Notes under the pieces: model-generated
What the model saw: the letters and a program-made list of their open reading frames with translations, nothing else
Database searches by the model: none
What the model was told of the DNA's origin: nothing
NCBI GenBank assembly: GCA_018822435.1
Contig: JAHJKD010000043.1
Span: forward strand, 1-41,058
DNA length: 41,058 nt
Direction of reading: 5' to 3'
From: Patescibacteria group bacterium
Lineage (GTDB): Bacteria > Patescibacteriota > Patescibacteriia > UBA9570 > JAHJKD01
Program-made: the position numbers and the translations under genes
Part shown: positions 15,175 through 32,184 of the stretch, in pieces
How positions within the stretch are numbered: the stretch's first letter is position 1
How the letters are laid out: every line of letters begins with the position of its first letter

Positions 15175-15774
15175 ATCCCAATCTAATTGCGCTCTTAACA
15201 TATTTACTATTGCTTTATTAATCTCCTGCCATTGCTCGTCTGTCAGCCGTAATTTTCTAATCTCTTTTAGATCAGCCCCGACTAAAAATCTTAGCACCTT
15301 ATTAATATCTGTTCGTTGCCTAAGGTCAGGCGTATATCCTAATTTGCTCAGTAATTTTAAAACAGATGCTTTTATCATAAGTTCGTTCACGCTATCGCCA
15401 TTCATCAATACCAAATTATTCTTAAGTAACTCAAATAACTCCGGGTCTGCCTCCCCTTCTTTGATTAGCTGATCATAAATTTCACACAAATAAGAGGCTA
15501 AATTAATTTTTTCATAATCTTTTTTCAGATTATAAAAACATTCTACTTGGGCTGCTCCAGCCAGCCGATCAAAGCCTTTGCCTTTAGCTATAAAAACCTC
15601 AGTTAAACAAAAAGGTTCCAGATGTCCCGCCAACTTTGAAGTAGATTTTTTAGCAGCCTGGGCCTGGCATCTTACTTTACCATAATCTTTTGTGTAAATC
15701 GTATATAGCCGATTCGCATCTTTAGCGTCCCGGCTCCGTAAAATTATTCCAATTGTTTTGATGGATTGAGCCAT
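15148..15774 (-). CDS. recO: DNA repair protein RecO
   Basis: A 208-aa protein that helps RecR load RecA on single-stranded DNA in RecF-pathway repair. The N-terminal OB fold is recognisable (GIILRSRDAKDANRLYTIY, then TKDYGKVRCQAQAAKKSTSKLAGHLEPF), followed by the helical domain around LASYLCEIYDQL. The C-terminal four-Cys zinc site of many RecO proteins is absent: only single cysteines occur, and the protein is shorter than the common 240-250 aa. The ATG overlaps the ileS stop (TAATG), so it is translated by coupling. Confidence 0.9.
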   Translation of the reverse strand: MAQSIKTIGIILRSRDAKDANRLYTIYTKDYGKVRCQAQAAKKSTSKLAGHLEPFCLTEVFIAKGKGFDRLAGAAQVECFYNLKKDYEKINLASYLCEIYDQLIKEGEADPELFELLKNNLVLMNGDSVNELMIKASVLKLLSKLGYTPDLRQRTDINKVLRFLVGADLKEIRKLRLTDEQWQEINKAIVNMLRAQLDWDLQSERFIV

Positions 15775-18635
15775 TATTTTTTTAAGGACAATTTTAGCAT
15801 TACATCATCAATCTTTACCTCATCTTCACCAACTCCGGCTTTCCAATCTTTACTCACAGTATTCTTCATTAATTCTTCTTTATTATTTTCAATCACTTTG
15901 CCTAGGCCACTTTCTGTTTCATATTCAACTTCAACTTCATCATGAATAGTCAGGCCTTTTTTCTTGCGCAGAGAATTAGTGCCTCTAATAATCTCTCTGA
16001 CCAAGCCTTCTTCTTTTAGCTCTTCAGTCAATTCAATGTCCAATTCATATTTCTTTCCAAACTCTACTTCTTTTATATTAACTTCATCTTTAATCAGATC
16101 AGCCAGATCATCTTCCAGCTCTTTACCTTCAATTACGAGCTTAGCCAAAGGCTGACGCACGCGAATACCAGCTTCCTCTCTTAAAGCCAGACCTTTTTCT
16201 ACATACTCCCGGATTTGGCTCATCTTCTCCATTAATTCCGGATTGATCATTTTCTCATCCGACTCTGGCCATTCCTCTAAATGAACTGACTCTGCAATCC
16301 CGCCTAGTTCTTTATAATTTTCCTCTGCTGTAAAAGGTGTAAAAGGAGCCATTAATAAAGCTAGCTTAGACAAGACATGCTTAAGAGTAGCTAGAGCTGC
16401 TTTTTTATCATTGGCATCATCTCCTTTAAACCTGGCTCTGGACCGACGAATATACCAAGTTGATAATTCATCAACAAAATCTATAATTGGTCTGGCCGCT
16501 AAAACTAAATCATAAGCTCGCATATTATCAGTCACATCTTTAGTCAGCTGTTCAAGCTTAGATAAAATCCATTTATCTAAAATATTATTGCTTTTTGTAT
16601 CAGCCTTAATCTTATCGTCAGCAAACATAATATAAAAAGACATGATATTGCCCAAAATCATGATCAATTTTTTAAAAACCTCATCGACTCCCTTTTCCGA
16701 GAACATTAAAGTCTCCGCTTTCATGACAGGTGAGGTCAGTAAATAATAGCGCATGGCATCTGCCCCGTATTTATCTATTACTTCCGTTGGATTAGGATAA
16801 TTTTTAAGCTTTTTAGACATTTTTTGGCCGTCTTCCGCCAAGACAATGCCGTTAGCAATCACGTTTTTAAAGCAAATACTGTCCATGATCCCGGTAGAGA
16901 GAACTAATAAATAATAAAACCAGGCTCGAGTCTGATCCACGCCTTCCGCAATAAATTCAGCCGGGAAATTTTCTTCAAACTTTTTCTTGTTTTCAAACGG
17001 ATAATGCATTTGGGCATATGGCATAGCCCCAGATTCAAACCAACAATCTAATACGTCAGGAATTCTTTTCATCGTGCCTTTACAATTATCACAGCCAAAT
17101 TCAATCTTATCCATAATATGCTTATGCAGATCGTCTACTTTTTCTCCGCTAGCTTTTTCTAATTCCTCCCGTGATCCAAACACTTTTAGCTCCTCACATT
17201 CATCGCATTTCCAGATCGGCAAGACCGAACCCCAGAATCGTTGCCTGGAAATCGACCAGTCTTGCGCGCCTTCCAGCCATTTTCCAAATCGGCCTTCTTT
17301 AATATGTTCGGGCACCCAATTTATTTCCCCAGCCAACTTCAGCATCTCGTCTTTCTTTTTAGTGACGGCCACAAACCAGCTAGAAGTCGCATAGTTCAGA
17401 AGTGGAGAATCACACCGCCAGCAATGCGGATAACTATGTTCGTATTTTTCTTTGCCAAACAGGCGACCCGATTTAGCCAGTAATTTTATAATTTCTATGT
17501 CAGTTTCTTGGGGGTCTTCTTTTGGCTTTACTTGTCTGCCTGCCAAATCTTTTACTTCTTCTGTAAAACGGCCAGACATATCTACGTGCTGTACCCAAGG
17601 CAGATCATTTTCCTTGCCCAGGTTCATATCATCAGTACCAAAAGCTGGCGCAATATGCACCACGCCTGTGCCTTCTTCTGTATCCACAAAATCAGCTGCA
17701 TAAACATGCCAGCCTTTTTCTTTATTTTCATCAGTGGCAAAATAATCAAATAATGGCTCGTACGCCTTTCCTACTAAATCTTTCCCTTTCATCTCCTCAA
17801 CTACATCATATTCAATGCCATCTAAAACCTTATCTACTACAGACTTTGCCAGAATTAACTTTTTTCCGTTCATGTCTTTATTAGAAGAATATTCCTTGAT
17901 TTTAACTTTCACGTATTCAATATCATCTCCGACTGCCAGGGCCACATTGCCGGGCAGGGTCCAAGGCGTGGTCGTCCATGCCAAAATGGCTGTATCTTTT
18001 TCATCAATTAATGGCAAAGTCACCACGACAGACAGGTCTTTAATATTTTTATATCCTTGTGTCACTTCAGATTGAGAAAGAGTCGTTTCACAGCGTGGAC
18101 AAATATGCATGGATTTATATGATTCATAAATCAAGTCTTTGTCCCAAAGCTGTTTAAAGACCCACCAGATAGATTCCATATAATTCGGTTCCATAGTCAG
18201 ATAAGCTCTTTCCATATCTACCCAGCGGCCCATGCGCGGAATAAATTTCTTCCATTCGTCTGCGTACATGAGCACCTTGGAATGGCAGGACTGGTTAAAT
18301 TTATCAATGCCTATTTTTTCTTCTATATCCTTTTTACTGTGAATATCCAGCTCTTGTTCCACAATATTTTCAATGGGCAGGCCGTGACAATCCCAACCCC
18401 ATTTTCTTTCTACGCGATAACCATTCATGGTCCAGAATCTGGGCACAGTGTCTTTCATTAAACTGGCTACAATATGACCATAATGAGGAGTACCTGTTGC
18501 AAAAGGAGGTCCGTCATAAAAAACATAATCTCCATTCGGGGCTTTTTTATCAACCGATTTTTCAAAAATCTTGTTCTCTTGCCAGAACTTTAATATTTCT
18601 TCTTCTTTTTGTACGTACTTGTTTTTCTTTGGCAT
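15774..18635 (-). CDS. ileS: Isoleucyl-tRNA synthetase, type 2 (eukaryote-like)
   Basis: A 953-aa class I synthetase. The HIGH box reads GTPHYGHI (about residues 48-55) and the second signature is GQKMSKKLKN. GWDCHGLPIE and ARAWF-like TRAWFYYLL are also present, as is an editing (CP1) domain with TTPWTLPGNVALAV. The HYGH form, the KSMHICPRCETTLSQSEV segment and the long C-terminal part are features of type-2 IleRS, the class that includes mupirocin-resistant bacterial and eukaryotic enzymes. It lies second in the operon controlled by the T-box at 19454-19654. The 67-nt gap to the preceding gene contains a GC-rich palindrome. Confidence 0.97.
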   Translation of the reverse strand: MPKKNKYVQKEEEILKFWQENKIFEKSVDKKAPNGDYVFYDGPPFATGTPHYGHIVASLMKDTVPRFWTMNGYRVERKWGWDCHGLPIENIVEQELDIHSKKDIEEKIGIDKFNQSCHSKVLMYADEWKKFIPRMGRWVDMERAYLTMEPNYMESIWWVFKQLWDKDLIYESYKSMHICPRCETTLSQSEVTQGYKNIKDLSVVVTLPLIDEKDTAILAWTTTPWTLPGNVALAVGDDIEYVKVKIKEYSSNKDMNGKKLILAKSVVDKVLDGIEYDVVEEMKGKDLVGKAYEPLFDYFATDENKEKGWHVYAADFVDTEEGTGVVHIAPAFGTDDMNLGKENDLPWVQHVDMSGRFTEEVKDLAGRQVKPKEDPQETDIEIIKLLAKSGRLFGKEKYEHSYPHCWRCDSPLLNYATSSWFVAVTKKKDEMLKLAGEINWVPEHIKEGRFGKWLEGAQDWSISRQRFWGSVLPIWKCDECEELKVFGSREELEKASGEKVDDLHKHIMDKIEFGCDNCKGTMKRIPDVLDCWFESGAMPYAQMHYPFENKKKFEENFPAEFIAEGVDQTRAWFYYLLVLSTGIMDSICFKNVIANGIVLAEDGQKMSKKLKNYPNPTEVIDKYGADAMRYYLLTSPVMKAETLMFSEKGVDEVFKKLIMILGNIMSFYIMFADDKIKADTKSNNILDKWILSKLEQLTKDVTDNMRAYDLVLAARPIIDFVDELSTWYIRRSRARFKGDDANDKKAALATLKHVLSKLALLMAPFTPFTAEENYKELGGIAESVHLEEWPESDEKMINPELMEKMSQIREYVEKGLALREEAGIRVRQPLAKLVIEGKELEDDLADLIKDEVNIKEVEFGKKYELDIELTEELKEEGLVREIIRGTNSLRKKKGLTIHDEVEVEYETESGLGKVIENNKEELMKNTVSKDWKAGVGEDEVKIDDVMLKLSLKK

Positions 18636-18702: not shown

Positions 18703-19440
18703 TTAGGGCAGCTTCCAAAGCACAGTAGTTGTTTCCAGAACAGCCTGATGATCTTGCACCCATTCCAAAGTCGTCTTCGCATCATAAACCTCTCCCCCTT
18801 CTCCGTTTGGATTGAATCCCAGGATAATTTCCTCGCCGTCCAGATAGCCGTCTCCGTCCGTATCGGCATTGCCTTTATCCAGGCCGAACAGTTCCTCCCA
18901 TTCATCCCTTAAGCCGTCATAATCATGGTCAGACTGCTGGTATTCTTTGGGCAGTTCAGCAAAGCCCCAGACCTGCGTATTATTCGGATCAGTCGGACTG
19001 GTCCTTTGCGCCATTTCCAGGCCGTCCGGCGTGCCGTCCCCGTCCGTATCGCGATTATTCGGATCAGTTCCCAGCATTTTTTCATAGGCAACATTCAAAG
19101 CATCCTGATCAGCATCATATTCCTTAAGAAAGGTATAAGTCTTATATTCGCACACGGCGGCCGTTTCCGATAAAAAGAAACACTCATTATAGTCTTCCGG
19201 TTTTAATTCTTGTTGTTTGACTTTCTCTTCTTCCGTTAAATCGCTTGAATCAGCACTAATAAACTCAATCACTGTATCTTTCTTATCCTCTTCTTGTTGC
19301 TCGGTCGACTCATCAATTACTCCAATGAAACTCAGGGCTTGCTCACGCCAATCTGCCCGCACAAAAAGAACCAAGGCCACTGCTCCGGCTAAAAATAAGA
19401 GGCTGACAGTAATGATTAAAATAATTCTTCCTGGGCGCAT
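18703..19440 (-). CDS. Membrane-anchored protein with DxDxDG calcium-binding repeats (first gene behind the T-box)
   Basis: 245 aa. One N-terminal membrane helix (residues 6-27), an acidic linker, then an extracellular part. Calcium-type loops are visible at 131-140 (DTDGDGTPDG), 171-180 (DHDYDGLRDE) and 193-204 (DTDGDGYLDGEE), as in thrombospondin type-3/dockerin-like repeats. Two cysteines in NECFFLSETAAVC (87, 97) may form a disulfide. It ends in a GFNP segment and a Trp-containing tail. The protein at 26327 has the same order of parts and is a clear paralogue. The ATG directly follows an A/T run with no ribosome site. Confidence 0.85.
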   Translation of the reverse strand: MRPGRIILIITVSLLFLAGAVALVLFVRADWREQALSFIGVIDESTEQQEEDKKDTVIEFISADSSDLTEEEKVKQQELKPEDYNECFFLSETAAVCEYKTYTFLKEYDADQDALNVAYEKMLGTDPNNRDTDGDGTPDGLEMAQRTSPTDPNNTQVWGFAELPKEYQQSDHDYDGLRDEWEELFGLDKGNADTDGDGYLDGEEIILGFNPNGEGGEVYDAKTTLEWVQDHQAVLETTTVLWKLP

Positions 19441-19453
19441 TTTTTTTTAAAAT

Positions 19454-19654
19454 AAAAAAGTGATCTATATAGAGGGCTTCGGAAGCTTGCGCTGAGAGAG
19501 CGCAGCGAGCCGAAGCGGTACCACCTCGATTTATCACTTCATTTTCGGTTATTACGGCTACCGGGCCGTCCTGGTCTACTTCTCCCGCATCCTTGGGATT
19601 TTCTTCAGGCCACTTCCTTGGTGATTGCCAAGGTTAAATGTGTTTAAAATTTAC
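19454..19654 (-). ncRNA. T-box riboswitch leader (predicted tRNA-Ile sensing, ultrashort Stem I)
   Basis: All parts are on the minus strand. The T-box core AGGTGGTACCGC is at 19526-19515. Candidate antiterminator: GAGG/CCTC (19527-19524 with 19475-19472) and GCTTCGG/CCGAAGC (19516-19510 with 19482-19476) flank a 7-nt TGGTACC bulge that would pair with the tRNA NCCA end. Upstream, Stem I is CCTTGG/CCAAGG (19633-19628 / 19621-19616) with a 6-nt loop CAATCA that shows the Ile codon AUC. Stem II has CCTG/CAGG and CCC/GGG around a GAA/AGTA loop-E pair. A pseudoknot follows: ACGGC/GCCGT with loop CGGT pairing to ACCG at 19549-19546. AAGTGAT/ATCACTT plus a T run close the leader just before the first ATG. 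The operon contains ileS, which fits. Confidence 0.88.
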
Positions 19655-19660
19655 TAAGAT

Positions 19661-19689
19661 ATTATAAGCAAAAATTCTATTTTTTGCAA
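19661..19689 (-). promoter_or_regulatory. Consensus-like promoter of the T-box/ileS operon
   Basis: Minus strand TTGCAA at 19689-19684, 17-bp spacer, TATAAT at 19666-19661. Transcription should start near 19654, about 20 nt before Stem I of the T-box. Confidence 0.7.
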
Positions 19690-19727
19690 GGGTCTGCTCC
19701 GCTGGATAATATTTAATATTATGCAAT

Positions 19728-19783
19728 GGAACAGAACGGAGCGGAAGTCTCAACAAGTGCAAGAATTCATCCGTTCCGTTTCC
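19728..19783 (-). repeat. 56-nt hairpin repeat, copy 1 (after the 85-aa gene)
   Basis: This 56-nt element is repeated at 20136-20191 with only two mismatches. Its ends, GGAACAGAACGGA and TCCGTTCCGTTTCC, pair to form a long stem with a roughly 29-nt loop. It lies 29 nt after the stop of the 85-aa gene and so is probably a 3' hairpin/terminator or mRNA stabiliser. Confidence 0.7.
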
Positions 19784-19812: not shown

Positions 19813-20070
19813 TTAAACCTCCTTTCTGAAAAGAGCCGGCAAAAAACCGACGAATACAGCGAGCAGAACGACGCCACTGCGACCCGCATAGACCAACGGG
19901 CCATCTGCCACTCCAGCCAGCGCCAGAATCGCACCAGGGACGATTACCCCGCCAGCCAGCATGCTGCCGGAGTGGTGGAAAAAAGCCCTCCATTTGCCCG
20001 GAGCCGTGTGGTTCCCAGCCACAAAAAGGACGCCGCTCAAGACTATGCCAATACCAAAAAACAAGTACAT
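19813..20070 (-). CDS. Small three-helix membrane protein (island)
   Basis: 85 aa with three hydrophobic segments (about residues 2-19, 37-53 and 62-80), ending in Lys-Glu-Val. No family recognised. A strong ribosome site, GAGGAGGTC, lies just before ATG 20070, unlike the AT-rich genes around the island. Base composition is GC-rich. It is the last gene of the four-gene minus-strand set and is separated from the preceding gene by 137 nt that hold repeat copy 2. Confidence 0.75.
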   Translation of the reverse strand: MYLFFGIGIVLSGVLFVAGNHTAPGKWRAFFHHSGSMLAGGVIVPGAILALAGVADGPLVYAGRSGVVLLAVFVGFLPALFRKEV

Positions 20071-20135
20071 ACGACCTCCTCTTGTCTCTTTACTTACTTG
20101 CTCCTCTGAAAATCAACCGGATGTTGATCTCCAAG

Positions 20136-20191
20136 GGAACAGAACGGAGCGGAAGTCTCAACAAGTGCGACAATTCATCCGTTCCGTTTCC
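20136..20191 (-). repeat. 56-nt hairpin repeat, copy 2 (after the 102-aa gene)
   Basis: Second copy of the element at 19728-19783, 54 of 56 bases identical. It lies 16 nt after the stop of the 102-aa gene. A small GATGGG/CCCATC hairpin immediately precedes it in transcript order. Both copies occupy the same place relative to a small membrane protein gene. Confidence 0.7.
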
Positions 20192-21344: not shown

Positions 21345-22274
21345 ATGACAGATGAACTCAGATTGCGGAAGCTGAAGGACAAGTACATGACCATGCTGGG
21401 AGCAGCCCAGCTCATGCTCATGGGAGAGGGTCAGCTGTTCTTCAAGTATTTCATGACCATGGCCGCGTCAGACACCGGCGCCGACCGGATCGCCCTGCTC
21501 GAACGGGCCGGCCGGAACTGGCGCGTGGTCTATGCCTTCGGCAACCACGCCCCGGAGCTGGGCGAGGAGATCTCGCTCGATGGCAAGGTCACCATGAGTC
21601 CGCTCGACTCCTGGTGGTCCCGCCCCACTGCTGACATTGGTTGGGACGCCATCTTCCCAATCAATAGCGGCCTGCCCAACCGAACTGTTCTCGCCGTCGA
21701 TGATACTGATGCGGAACGAGACTTCACGGCCTTCAAGAACGTCTTCCAGTCCATTGCCGATACCCTCGGTACTCTGATCAGGGTCAGGAAGCTCATGACC
21801 AAGGACATCGTCACTGGTCTGCCCAACCAACTGGCCTGCGAAGCCCGGCTCGACGAAGAGCTCCTCCGCGTCATCCACCACGAGCCGCATCAGGCTGTGA
21901 TCGCGCTCGTGGCTCTGGACAAGTACGGCGAGTATGAGGTCGATTCCTCGGGCAAGGCCATGCGCTACCTCGGGCACCTGCTTCGTTCCCAACTACCGGA
22001 GACTGCCTTTGTCGGCCGGATCGGTGAGGATCGTTTCCTGGTCATCCAGATCGAACTCCTCACTGACGCCTCTGGCCGGCTCGACGCCATCCGCAAGAAA
22101 CTGGCCGCCACCCAGGAGATTATCGCCACCTGTTCGGTCGGCATCGCCCTGATGACGCCAGAACTGGTCATTGATCCTTCCTTGGGGCGCGCTCAGGCGG
22201 CCTTAGAGCGTGCGTTCAAGACTCACGATAAAGTCGAGGTCGATCCTCTCTCTCAGCCCACCCGCTCCGAGTGA
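21345..22274 (+). CDS. GAF-GGDEF protein 1, degenerate cyclase site
   Basis: 309 aa. Residues 1-145 form a GAF-like sensor (DTGADRIALLERAGRNW, closing with VLAVDDTDAERDF). After a short helix, a GGDEF-fold domain starts at DIVTGLPNQLACEARL. The signature is RIGEDRF where an active enzyme has R(F/Y)GG(D/E)EF, and the first metal-binding Asp motif is reduced to VALDKYGEYEV. It therefore should not make c-di-GMP; it may bind a nucleotide or pair with the active paralogue. It is cytoplasmic, GC-rich and has its own promoter, a strong ribosome site, a 13-bp hairpin and a terminator. Confidence 0.85.
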   Translation: MTDELRLRKLKDKYMTMLGAAQLMLMGEGQLFFKYFMTMAASDTGADRIALLERAGRNWRVVYAFGNHAPELGEEISLDGKVTMSPLDSWWSRPTADIGWDAIFPINSGLPNRTVLAVDDTDAERDFTAFKNVFQSIADTLGTLIRVRKLMTKDIVTGLPNQLACEARLDEELLRVIHHEPHQAVIALVALDKYGEYEVDSSGKAMRYLGHLLRSQLPETAFVGRIGEDRFLVIQIELLTDASGRLDAIRKKLAATQEIIATCSVGIALMTPELVIDPSLGRAQAALERAFKTHDKVEVDPLSQPTRSE

Positions 22275-22293
22275 GCGATCAGGATTCCTCCTC

Positions 22294-22332
22294 GGTCCTG
22301 GTATAGTAGATAACCAATGCTATACCAGGACC
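22294..22332 (+). terminator. Perfect 13-bp hairpin after GAF-GGDEF 1
   Basis: GGTCCTGGTATAG (22294-22306) pairs perfectly with CTATACCAGGACC (22320-22332), loop 13 nt. It is followed by AACCC, not a T run, so it is not a textbook intrinsic terminator by itself. Confidence 0.7.
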
Positions 22333-22337
22333 AACCC

Positions 22338-22362
22338 AAATCCCTTAAATATGGGATTTTTT
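22338..22362 (+). terminator. Intrinsic terminator after GAF-GGDEF 1
   Basis: AAATCCC (22338-22344) pairs with GGGATTT (22353-22359), 8-nt loop, followed by a run of T. It follows the 13-bp hairpin directly. Confidence 0.7.
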
Positions 22363-22378
22363 AGATAATTTTAATATC

Positions 22379-22407
22379 TTGACAAAATATATAAGATATG
22401 CTATTAT
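22379..22407 (+). promoter_or_regulatory. Consensus promoter TTGACA-17-TATTAT of GAF-GGDEF 2
   Basis: TTGACA at 22379-22384, 17-bp spacer, TATTAT at 22402-22407. It predicts a leader of about 120 nt with a GCTATTGCAGAA/TTCTGTAATGGC hairpin and a GTTTG/CAAAC hairpin, ending in AAAGGAGGT before ATG 22537. The leader matches no riboswitch class I know. Confidence 0.75.
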
Positions 22408-22536
22408 GTGGCGTCCTAAATTGGGCGTATTTTAATTAATTCAAGCTTAAAATGGCTATTGCAGAATCGAATGTTTCTGTAATGGCAAAATAGGTTTGAA
22501 CCGCAAACATCCGCATAAGAAAAGGAGGTATCTATA

Positions 22537-23637
22537 ATGACGGATGATATCAGAATGATCCCGGAGCCGGATGCCACGCAAGTGGCCTGGGATCTCGGGG
22601 CGGCGATCATGAAGGTCGTCAATGGCCCTGACCGGCACCCTTCCGAGCTGATCGACGTGCTTCTCAAGCGCATCCATCAGCACCTGAACGCCCACCGGAT
22701 CGTGGTCGTGCAGGATTTCGCGGGCCAATGGAAGGTCGTGTCCCATTCCGGGACCCGGCTCTCCTTCAGCTCTGACTTGGACGAAGTGCCTGTTCCTCGG
22801 AACGGCGAGATCGTCCCGAACGTGCCTGCGGAGGCTTTCGACCGGGGATTCGTGTCCACTCCTGAAGAGGGGGTGGGCTGGGATTGCTGGGTGGCCATTC
22901 GCAACGGTGACGGACAGAAACGGCTCCTGGCCGTGGACGACGTCACTGCCGCCCGCAACTACGAGACCTACCGGCCGTCACTTCAGCTGATGGCTGACAT
23001 GCTTGGTGAGGCCCTGTTGCTGCAGGAAACGGCCCGGCAGGATCCTCTCACTGACTTGCCCAACCGAGAGGCGTTCAGGCAGATTCTGGAACGGCAGGCT
23101 CACCTCGTCTACCGCAATACCGAGCCGGTCTGCGTCGTCCTGGCGCACATCCATCAGGCGAATCGGATCCGCGAGAACGAAGTGGTCAACTCGATCATGC
23201 TCTCACTGGCCCGGCATTTCACGGCCCATCTGGCCGAGCCCGGCGGTCTGGACGAGCCCTGCGGTCGTGACGAGCCCAGCGGTCTGGTCGCCCGCTTCGG
23301 CAGGAAGTCGCTTGTGGTCATGCTGGAAGGAGTTGACCTGGACTACGCCCAGATCTGGGCCAACAGAGTCCGGGGCACACTCTCTGGGCCGCGTCGCTTC
23401 GAGCTCAGCTCGAGCAACGTGTTCGAACTTGATTTCAACCTCGGCCTGGCCGTCATGGACTACATCATGGTCGCCCGGTTCGTGGACGAAGGCAAGCACG
23501 AGCCCTTCAAGCTGGCCGCTGACATCATCGTCGACCAGGTCAGGCAGGCGCTCGATCTGGCCATCACCGAAGACCGGCCCTCCACGGCATTCTTCACCCC
23601 CACGGGCATCATCCTTGGTTCAAACTTCTCCGACTAG
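22537..23637 (+). CDS. GAF-GGDEF protein 2, strongly degenerate cyclase site
   Basis: 366 aa. The N-terminal part (about 1-160) is GAF-like, with HRIVVVQDFAGQWKVV and a closing LLAVDDVTAARNY shared with its two paralogues. The GGDEF-fold part starts QDPLTDLPNREAF. No metal-binding Asp remains in VVLAHIHQANRI, and the signature is RFGRKSL in place of RFGGEEF. A short in-frame tandem repeat (GLDEP-CGRDEP) lies just before it, where an I-site would be. It is very probably catalytically dead. Ribosome site AAAGGAGGT; the stop codon lies inside the left arm of a 13-bp hairpin. Confidence 0.82.
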   Translation: MTDDIRMIPEPDATQVAWDLGAAIMKVVNGPDRHPSELIDVLLKRIHQHLNAHRIVVVQDFAGQWKVVSHSGTRLSFSSDLDEVPVPRNGEIVPNVPAEAFDRGFVSTPEEGVGWDCWVAIRNGDGQKRLLAVDDVTAARNYETYRPSLQLMADMLGEALLLQETARQDPLTDLPNREAFRQILERQAHLVYRNTEPVCVVLAHIHQANRIRENEVVNSIMLSLARHFTAHLAEPGGLDEPCGRDEPSGLVARFGRKSLVVMLEGVDLDYAQIWANRVRGTLSGPRRFELSSSNVFELDFNLGLAVMDYIMVARFVDEGKHEPFKLAADIIVDQVRQALDLAITEDRPSTAFFTPTGIILGSNFSD

Positions 23638-23665
23638 ACAGAGTCCGCCCGTACTCTGTCTAGTC
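23632..23665 (+). terminator. Perfect 13-bp hairpin overlapping the stop of GAF-GGDEF 2
   Basis: GACTAGACAGAGT (23632-23644) pairs perfectly with ACTCTGTCTAGTC (23653-23665), loop 8 nt; the TAG stop is in the left arm. It is followed by ACCC and no T run, like the hairpin after gene 1. Confidence 0.7.
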
Positions 23666-23752
23666 ACCCAATCCTTTTCAAGATTGAAATTGCTTCTCAA
23701 GATCTCCGGATTTTTAGAAGCGCTAGGCAGTCTTGGCAACCCCACCAACCAT

Positions 23753-23770
23753 CCCGCAAAACGGGTTTTT
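23753..23770 (+). terminator. Small hairpin with T run just before GAF-GGDEF 3 (terminator or attenuator)
   Basis: CCCG (23753-23756) pairs with CGGG (23762-23765), loop CAAAA, followed by TTTTT (23766-23770). It ends 17 nt before ATG 23788 and directly abuts the ribosome site AAAGGGAG. I see no convincing promoter after it, so transcription of gene 3 would have to pass through it. Confidence 0.5.
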
Positions 23771-23787
23771 AAAGGGAGCACATTGAC

Positions 23788-24762
23788 ATGGACAAGAAGA
23801 TCATCGAGTTCTACACTTTCCTTTTCGAACTGCTATCGCTAGCCATCGAGGGCGAGGGGAACGAATTCTTCGCCATGGTGGCCCGGCGCATCAACCGGGA
23901 CACCGGCGCGGACCGGCTCGCTATCCTGGAGCTCGATCCGGACAAGGGCTGGACCCACCGGGTCAAGTACCCGGAAGACACCCCGGAAGAGGAGTTCGAC
24001 CGGCGGACGATCGCCCTGCTCTCCACGCCGCGGGATTTCTACGACCGCGCCACCCCGGGGCTGGGCTTCGACGCTTTCTTCGAGATCAAGTGCCGGGAAG
24101 ACAAGATCCGTCGCCTGCTCGCTATCGACGACACCGGCGACAAGCGCAGCTTCTTCGAGCTGGTCAACCTGTTCCTGCCCGTGGCCCTGGCCATGGGCAA
24201 GCTGATCGACGCCAACATGTTGGCCAAGATCGACAAGCTGACCGGGCTCCTGGACGCGGGCGTCTGCCGCTCCAAGGTCGAGACCGAAATCGCGCGCATG
24301 CGCCGCAAACGCGATCGCCGGGTCTGCGTCTGCCTCCTCGACCTCGACCACTTCAAGTCGATCAACGACACATACGGGCATCCGGTCGGGGACGAGGTCC
24401 TCAGGTGCTTTGGCCGCTTCCTCCGCCTCAAGAATGGAGGCCAGGACGAGAACGAACTCCGTTTCCGACGGGAGGACTTCGTCGGCCGATTCGGCGGTGA
24501 AGAATTCCTTCTCATAATGGAGGAAGCCACACCTCGAGGCGCGAAGAACCGCTTGGAGGAGATGCTGGCCGAATGGTCGCGCATCACCTTCTCAGAGACC
24601 GGACAAGACTTCCGCGTCAGCTTCTCAGCCGGCGTGGCCCTGCTCTCTCCGGATCTGGTCGACCACCACTACGGCGTTCTCAAGCGGGCGGATGACGCGC
24701 TCTATGAGGCCAAAAAGGCTGGCCGCGCCTGCGTGATGATCGACCCGGACTCCCTCTCCTAG
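23788..24762 (+). CDS. GAF-GGDEF protein 3: intact diguanylate cyclase
   Basis: 324 aa. The GAF-like N-terminus (DTGADRLAILELDPDKGW, closing LLAIDDTGDKRSF) is followed by a complete GGDEF domain: IDKLTGLLDAG, LLDLDHFKSINDTYGHPVGD (metal-binding Asp) and RFGGEEFLLIMEEA. The inhibitory I-site RxxD is present as RRED, exactly five residues before GGEEF. SFSAGVALLS and ADDALYEAKKAGR complete the fold. It should make c-di-GMP from two GTP and be product-inhibited. It is cytoplasmic with no membrane helix. GC-rich. It may share its signal with the dead paralogues upstream. Confidence 0.93.
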   Translation: MDKKIIEFYTFLFELLSLAIEGEGNEFFAMVARRINRDTGADRLAILELDPDKGWTHRVKYPEDTPEEEFDRRTIALLSTPRDFYDRATPGLGFDAFFEIKCREDKIRRLLAIDDTGDKRSFFELVNLFLPVALAMGKLIDANMLAKIDKLTGLLDAGVCRSKVETEIARMRRKRDRRVCVCLLDLDHFKSINDTYGHPVGDEVLRCFGRFLRLKNGGQDENELRFRREDFVGRFGGEEFLLIMEEATPRGAKNRLEEMLAEWSRITFSETGQDFRVSFSAGVALLSPDLVDHHYGVLKRADDALYEAKKAGRACVMIDPDSLS

Positions 24763-31762: not shown

Positions 31763-32161
31763 GGGGATGATTTTAATCGATAGAACTTTTACATCAATCA
31801 TTGTTCTTAGCTAAGCGATCCAGTAGGCTTGTTCAAACCATCTGGAACTCTAAGTGCAAACAACTTAGTAGCAAAGGTTAAAGGAGCAGTAAAGCAATTT
31901 GCCAGCTCTTTCGCTTTTGCGCCAGCTGTCGCTTAATCCCGATAGCCATCCGACTTTCTGACGCCTCTAGGGAATAACCGGGTGCCATTTTTCGAGGCTT
32001 TACTTTCAGATGCTGTTTTCTGGAAGCGAATGTTTAAGCAGCTAGGAAATTTTCTATTTTGTCTGTTTAGAGGCTAATTTCCAAAATTTTAAAACAGTCT
32101 ATGCTAAGTAAACCGGTGATCGAGAAAGTCCTAGACGCGGGTGTGATCCCCGCCATCTCCA
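31763..32161 (+). ncRNA. ssrA: Transfer-messenger RNA (tmRNA)
   Basis: The acceptor stem pairs GGGGATG (31763-31769) with CATCTCC (32154-32160), with one G-U; the discriminator is A32161 and CCA is not encoded (CAA follows). The T arm GCGGG/CCCGC is intact, but its loop reads TGTGATC where TTC(A/G)A is normal. The tag frame from GCA at 31856 reads ANNLVAKVKGAVKQFASSFA then FAPAVA and stops at TAA 31934-31936: 26 residues, much longer than the usual 8-15, with the hydrophobic end expected for protease recognition. Pseudoknot-forming pairs flank the tag. Order smpB-ssrA-infC on one strand. Confidence 0.93.
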
Positions 32162-32184
32162 CAATTAATAAATAAATAAAAAAA

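Follow-up and report, generated by a model that had tools for sequence, protein, structure and literature searches.

Upstream of the isoleucyl-tRNA synthetase gene ileS of a Patescibacteria group bacterium is a leader of about 200 nt between promoter and U-run end (minus strand, 19654..19454 of a 41,058-nt stretch of contig JAHJKD010000043.1, assembly GCA_018822435.1, the whole of which is referred to here as the window). Its reading as an isoleucine T-box, a tRNA-Ile-sensing switch with an ultrashort (class III) Stem I, is confirmed at the level of sequence. This T-box probably controls transcription of a two-gene operon, encoding a TSP3-repeat protein and the synthetase, by conditional termination. 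Predicted ultrashort T-boxes are phylum-wide in Patescibacteria, the present leader not being a single oddity, and some of them end, as here, in a stem that encloses the antiterminator.

Table 1 Features of the ileS leader and operon in the window
Feature	Position	Strand	Basis
Candidate sigma-70-like promoter	19661..19689	-	TTGCAA, 17-nt spacer, TATAAT; 10/12 consensus matches
Stem I basal helix, 3 bp CAC/GUG	19640..19642 with 19611-19613	-	sequence
Stem I distal helix and loop, CCUUGG-CAAUCA-CCAAGG	19616..19633 (19633-19628 with 19621-19616)	-	sequence
Specifier codon AUC (Ile), then A	19623..19625	-	codon–gene match across leaders
Stem II with S-turn GAA (19606-19604) / AGUA (19580-19577)	19570..19609	-	sequence
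Stem IIA/B pseudoknot, ACGGC/GCCGU plus loop CGGU with ACCG	19546..19569	-	pair-type variation in relatives
AAGUG, RRRxG 'Stem III purine string' motif	19535..19539	-	motif from PMC7583486
Closing (predicted terminator) stem, 5′ arm AAGUGAU	19533..19539	-	arm-swap test, constrained fold
Antiterminator, A1 GAGG/CCUC and A2 GCUUCGG/CCGAAGC	19472..19527	-	A1/A2 covariation
T-box bulge UGGUACC, 7 nt, between A1 and A2	19523-19517	-	fits UGGNACC
REP-like palindromic insert, 27 nt, atop helix A2	19483..19509 (palindrome to 19515)	-	none in relatives
Closing (predicted terminator) stem, 3′ arm AUCACUU	19458..19464	-	arm-swap test, constrained fold
U-run U6, flush with closing stem	19454..19459	-	sequence
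First operon gene, 245-aa TSP3-repeat protein	18703..19440	-	Pfam PF18884; no Shine–Dalgarno (SD) sequence
ileS, isoleucine–tRNA ligase (regulated target)	15774..18635	-	TIGR00392, 919 bits against a cut-off of 621

Architecture of the leader

The first-pass annotation, made from the letters of the window, had named an isoleucine T-box with an ultrashort Stem I in a CPR-type genome, comprising a T-box core, a bulged antiterminator helix, a pseudoknot and a Stem II with a GAA/AGTA motif. The minus strand carries every one of them, and homologues of the leader stand before ileS in other genomes. Transcription is predicted to start at about 19654, just below the candidate promoter; promoter-like sites also arise by chance, at a mean of 2.1 per shuffled region.

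Stem I is built of two helices separated by an asymmetric internal loop, which by eye resembles a K-turn. The distal helix has the 6 bp first ascribed to it, with the AUC codon in its terminal loop as proposed; that these are the only base pairs of Stem I does not hold, a basal helix lying below the internal loop. Equivalents of the basal helix with changed pairs are found by eye in two related genera (UGCG/CGUA in G004, UACC/GGUA in G006), and the distal architecture recurs with changed pairs among leaders of the taxonomic class. Stem II is formed by helices CCUG/CAGG and UCCC/GGGA, and AGUAGA or a close variant is present in nearly all class leaders. The Stem IIA/B pseudoknot that follows, with its F-box, is of the kind expected of T-boxes. 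Linkers, in 5′ to 3′ order, are AAAAUG before AAGUGAU, AAAUC before A1 and UAUAUAG between A2 and AUCACUU. No Stem III hairpin is seen after AAGUG in this leader, although AA follows.

The palindrome first described as extending the upper helix does sit on A2, as an apical insert peculiar to this genome. The palindrome (CTGAGAGAGCGMAGCGARCCGAAG) occurs four times in the genome, twice exactly and twice in diverged form (window 19483-19515; L217, about 1511-1560; L220; L221), against none for a reversed control. One of these copies is the insert on A2 and a second falls within the RNase P RNA, close to the 3′ end; the element therefore seems able to enter RNA hairpins and leave them intact.

Folding of the window leader is better than that of its shuffles (z = −2.95). 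Plain folding of the G004 leader is no better than shuffles (z = 0.05), and single-sequence folding was therefore dropped in favour of covariation.

Genomic setting

Between the TSP3-repeat gene and ileS, the minus strand shows no terminator-like site. SD sequences precede 4 of the 29 genes in the window and are absent from both genes of the operon. The nearest named relatives of the ileS product are from Ca. Magasanikbacteria (57%) and Ca. Falkowbacteria (54%), with a further relative in a Patescibacteria bin (55%). They place the genome in Patescibacteria, probably in class ABY1.

Upstream of the leader, a small open reading frame (19813-20070) is flanked by the two copies of a 60-nt direct repeat (19724-19783 and 20132-20191, 95% identical) with inverted ends GGAACAGAACGGA and TCCGTTCCGTTTCC. 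Three neighbouring GGDEF (diguanylate cyclase-like) open reading frames at 21345-24762 on the plus strand form the one group of genes in the window whose SD sequences are clear, the other window genes lacking them, and were possibly acquired. A tmRNA gene lies at 31763-32164 on the plus strand (RF00023, 84.8 bits).

Among 43 tRNA matches in the assembly, which is 94% complete, tRNA-Ile(GAU) was not found; it was probably lost from the assembly together with the rRNA operon. A tRNA-Ile with anticodon UAU and discriminator A is annotated on another contig of the genome (L215, C18).

Distribution in Patescibacteria

In a DNA search of 57 relatives, two more genera (G004 and G006) proved to have a homologous leader ahead of ileS, and the second of them also has a valine version before an HD-domain gene and valS. 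A first covariance model, built from these two leaders and that of the window, matched 29 of 381 genomes of the class. A second, built from 24 of the first-round leaders, the models being refined by iteration, matched 64 of the 381 class genomes (58 of 291 genera) and 109 of 380 genomes of the phylum (93 of 314 genera), with E-values that are rough owing to a short calibration. Nearly all inspected leaders lie upstream of ileS, valS, aspS, thrS or serS, mostly of the first three, directly or with one short gene between.

Aligned end to end with Rfam model RF00230, the window leader scores 11.7 bits against a gathering cut-off of 93, and a search of its own genome with this model gives no match. 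Across the 380 phylum genomes RF00230 matches 127 at E ≤ 0.001 and passes its cut-off in 13. Because the model is built around a long Stem I, we take the low score as a limit of the model and not as non-membership. A covariance score below threshold had been named at the outset as refuting the T-box reading; such a score does occur with RF00230, but the related leaders keep the codon loop, the T-box bulge and the pseudoknot.

In four genera of the order (L065, L102, L103 and L105), an HD-domain phosphohydrolase-like gene separates a valine T-box from valS, as a further predicted member of the regulon. Other T-boxes precede an aminotransferase gene (L095) and an Asp/Glu racemase gene (L044, specifier AUC).

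Covariation and codon specificity

The covariation proposed as a check in related leaders is found in A1, A2 and the pseudoknot. Across 15 pairs of helix IIA, the pseudoknot, A1 and A2 in 24 relatives, 94.4% of cells are paired and 47 are double changes, where shuffles give 12.7 ± 4.0 and slid controls no more than 11; the covariation score is 0.398, and 0.198 for the shuffles. Pseudoknot pairs among these relatives are of the types AU, CG, GC and GU. The base of helix A2 is a G-C pair here and in 23 of the 24, in place of a G-U wobble. The terminal G-U wobble of A2 is described as the main 3′-aminoacyl sensor of T-boxes; with G-C in its position, charge sensing may therefore lean more on the purine string.

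The specifier follows the downstream gene. AUC precedes ileS in 20 leaders, GUC precedes valS in 16, and GAC and AAC precede aspS in 5 and 2, counted over loops that end in an expected codon plus A, a restriction that favours such codons and not their match to the gene. It was applied because the automatic search for Stem I settles on the wrong hairpin in many leaders; the few codon–gene disagreements are mispicked hairpins or contig ends. The fourth base of the T-box bulge, the partner of the tRNA discriminator, is U in almost every ileS and valS leader, C in 7 of 10 aspS leaders and A in both thrS leaders, a pattern (U for Ile and Val, C for Asp, A for Thr) that follows the usual tRNA discriminator bases.

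The aspS T-boxes with an AAC (Asn) specifier (L057/L132 and G279) suggest a non-discriminating AspRS that also charges tRNA-Asn and is under tRNA-Asn control. Some valine T-boxes have an unusually large Stem I specifier loop of 9–11 nt, for example AUUAAUGUCA (L048, L050, L054, L058, L065 and L081), and in the G006 valine leader (L065) the normal Stem II is seemingly missing.

The closing stem

Leaders of the class have at least two kinds of expression platform, an ordinary terminator hairpin or a closing stem. The ordinary hairpin lies at the same place and is either separate, or overlapping; valS leaders with AACGCA-GCAA-UGCGUUUU are examples of this type, and in three genomes (G003, G005 and G009) the 3′ strand of A1 pairs downstream, giving the canonical overlap. 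In the closing type, found in 23 leaders by an energy criterion, the linker 3′ of the pseudoknot pairs with a strand flush with the U-run.

The window leader is of the closing type. Its stem, AAGUGAU/AUCACUU, encloses the antiterminator and shares no nucleotides with A1 or A2, so that the 5′ strand of the predicted terminator is not the 3′ half of A1/A2 as in canonical T-boxes. The first-pass annotation was correct in describing this stem as enclosing the antiterminator and not competing with it, and the stem covaries in about 20 leaders. Its arms change together: AAGUGA/UCACUU in the group of the window leader, AAGCACCAA/UUGGUGUU in family f64, UUCACAG/CUGUGA in G344, CCACA/UGUGG in G276, AAGUGAAA/UUUCGCUU in G121 and AAGCGCC/GGCGUUU in G106. 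Paired with its own partner, an arm gives a mean of −7.7 kcal/mol, and with a swapped one −4.8 ± 0.53; none of 20,000 permutations is as good (2 of 20,000 when dereplicated by arm). In constrained folds of 18 leaders the closing stem contributes −5 to −14 kcal/mol, and −7.0 in the window leader. Pairing of the specifier loop AUCAC with the linker GUGAU was set aside, as the linker of the valine leader does not follow its GUC.

A U-run of 4–9 is present in the 62 class leaders measured, a count from which leaders with no U-run in range were set aside, and directly follows the stem in every closing-type leader. In keeping with a missing Stem III, the interval from AAG to A1 is at most 14 nt in 39 of the 62. 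The AAG that starts the purine-string motif is kept in nearly all leaders; the full RRRxG is exact in the group of the window leader and only partly kept elsewhere (AAGCA, AAGUU). In the window leader AAGUG coincides with the 5′ arm of the closing stem.

Because SD sequences are scarce and the closing stem runs into conserved U-runs, the output of the leader is most likely transcription attenuation. An SD sequestrator and anti-sequestrator are absent, the U-run being in their place, and the stem flush with U6 is a predicted terminator of the kind found in transcriptional T-boxes. A non-translational mechanism had been suspected when the leader was first described, and the SD counts and the passage of the closing stem into a U-run, here and in relatives, bear this out.

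Proposed mechanism and alternatives

In T-boxes of solved structure, an RRRxG string by Stem III docks on the helix formed by the tRNA 3′ end and the bulge, does so only with uncharged tRNA, and locks the ON state (PMC7583486). As AAGUG matches this motif and is also a closing arm, we propose that the string is shared between reading in the ON state and the terminator in the OFF state. When uncharged tRNA-Ile is lacking, linker AAGUGAU would pair with AUCACUU just before the U-run, making one long hairpin with the antiterminator inside it, and the polymerase would stop. Uncharged tRNA-Ile would pair its GAU anticodon with the AUC of the Stem I loop, the S-turn of Stem II holding it in place, and its ACCA end with UGGU of the bulge. 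The AAGUG string would then dock along the tRNA-end helix, becoming unavailable to the terminator strand, and transcription would reach ileS; a charged tRNA would block docking and leave the terminator free to form.

We infer from the sequence tRNA binding, termination, and docking against pairing as the switch. A platform with the purine string as 5′ arm of the terminator, in which charge sensing and the terminator compete for one strand, is a possibility that we hold tentatively. Since the closing stem leaves the antiterminator untouched, the switch would rest on steric or tertiary exclusion, which sequence alone cannot prove. Counting against the mechanism are the missing Stem III, which is described as necessary for binding of the tRNA end, the G-C base of A2, the inexact RRRxG of other groups and the failure to find tRNA-Ile(GAU) in the assembly.

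The tRNA could also act by geometry: bridging Stem I/II and the bulge, it would tighten the linker and prevent the closing stem, docking of the string not being decisive. In G106 the closing stem surrounds Stem III as well as the antiterminator, so its 5′ arm is there simply linker, and the inexact RRRxG of some closing-type leaders points the same way. A pure linker would, however, not need the AAG that nearly all leaders keep exactly within the arm, and we consider geometry the somewhat unlikely account. That the closing stem merely stabilises the bound state, the U-run being incidental, is very improbable: the stem does surround the site of tRNA-end binding, like the P1 stems of other riboswitches, but a U-run stands right behind it in every closing-type leader, and a working one would then terminate transcription under starvation, the opposite of what a synthetase operon requires.

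Ultrashort Stem I T-boxes have so far been mostly translational (PMC10482949), and a T-box of the actinobacterial class III type, in which binding of tRNA uncovers or masks the first gene's start region, would fit this precedent. Such an output is nevertheless unlikely, given a first gene with no SD in a window where SD sequences are rare, a conserved U-run that ends the closing stem ahead of the start codon, ordinary terminators in sister leaders, and synthetases that in many relatives lie hundreds of nucleotides downstream or behind another gene. Least credible is a degenerate T-box disabled by the REP-like insert. Both the restriction of the A2 insert to this genome and the low RF00230 score would agree with decay; against it, the contact elements and both closing arms are all intact, insert-free relatives also fall under the RF00230 cut-off, and T-boxes tolerate inserts in A2 (PMC7583486). 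The reading that we retain is transcription attenuation, with the shared string as its tentative switch.

Comparison with known T-boxes and significance

T-boxes have been described mostly from Gram-positive bacteria, and ultrashort ones mainly from Actinobacteria. Class III T-boxes have a short Stem I with no IDTM, the specifier in an apical loop of 5–6 nt and a required Stem II, and are mostly translational (PMC10482949). The window leader fits this description. With actinobacterial class III ileS T-boxes such as those of Nocardia farcinica and Mycobacterium tuberculosis it shares a short Stem I lacking the elbow-binding IDTM, the specifier AUC followed by a purine within an apical loop of 6 nt, the Stem II S-turn, the IIA/B pseudoknot, the UGGU bulge and the ileS target. 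Unlike them, it has a predicted U-run terminator in place of an SD sequestrator, no Stem III, and a base of A2 that is G-C, not G-U; its host lies outside Actinobacteria, and its relatives also read Val and Asp/Asn codons, with valine loops of 9–11 nt.

Antiterminator, Stem II, pseudoknot, U-run terminator and synthetase targets are common to this leader and class I transcriptional T-boxes (RF00230, Bacillus type), which differ in their long Stem I and IDTM (the leader scores 11.7 bits against the RF00230 cut-off of 93) and in a terminator that reuses the 3′ strand of A1/A2 where the present one encloses the antiterminator. Long-Stem-I T-boxes, found with RF00230, also occur in Patescibacteria (such as L109-L118), most of them under the Rfam cut-off; they share phylum and synthetase-type regulation with the window leader and differ from it in canonical overlapping terminators and a G-U base of A2. 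New here would be a class III architecture with transcriptional output and a partly new, enclosing platform.

For TBDB, the translational model was run on Actinobacteria and on truncated class I hits (PMC7778990). The Rfam model and this Actinobacteria-centred class II search would overlook many T-boxes. A literature search, mostly of non-subscription papers and so no proof of priority, found nothing on T-boxes in Patescibacteria, Parcubacteria or CPR, and they go unmentioned in a Parcubacteria genome paper for which Rfam was used.

The enclosing terminator raises the question of whether tRNA charge is read through competition for the purine string and not through dismantling of the antiterminator. 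If the shared-string platform is true, the antiterminator would never be dismantled, and in one branch of Patescibacteria the shared string would take the place of Stem III and of the canonical exchange between terminator and antiterminator. To our knowledge, almost nothing is known of regulation in Patescibacteria, because few are culturable; ultrashort T-boxes with terminators would offer a direct handle on how their reduced genomes sense amino-acid starvation.
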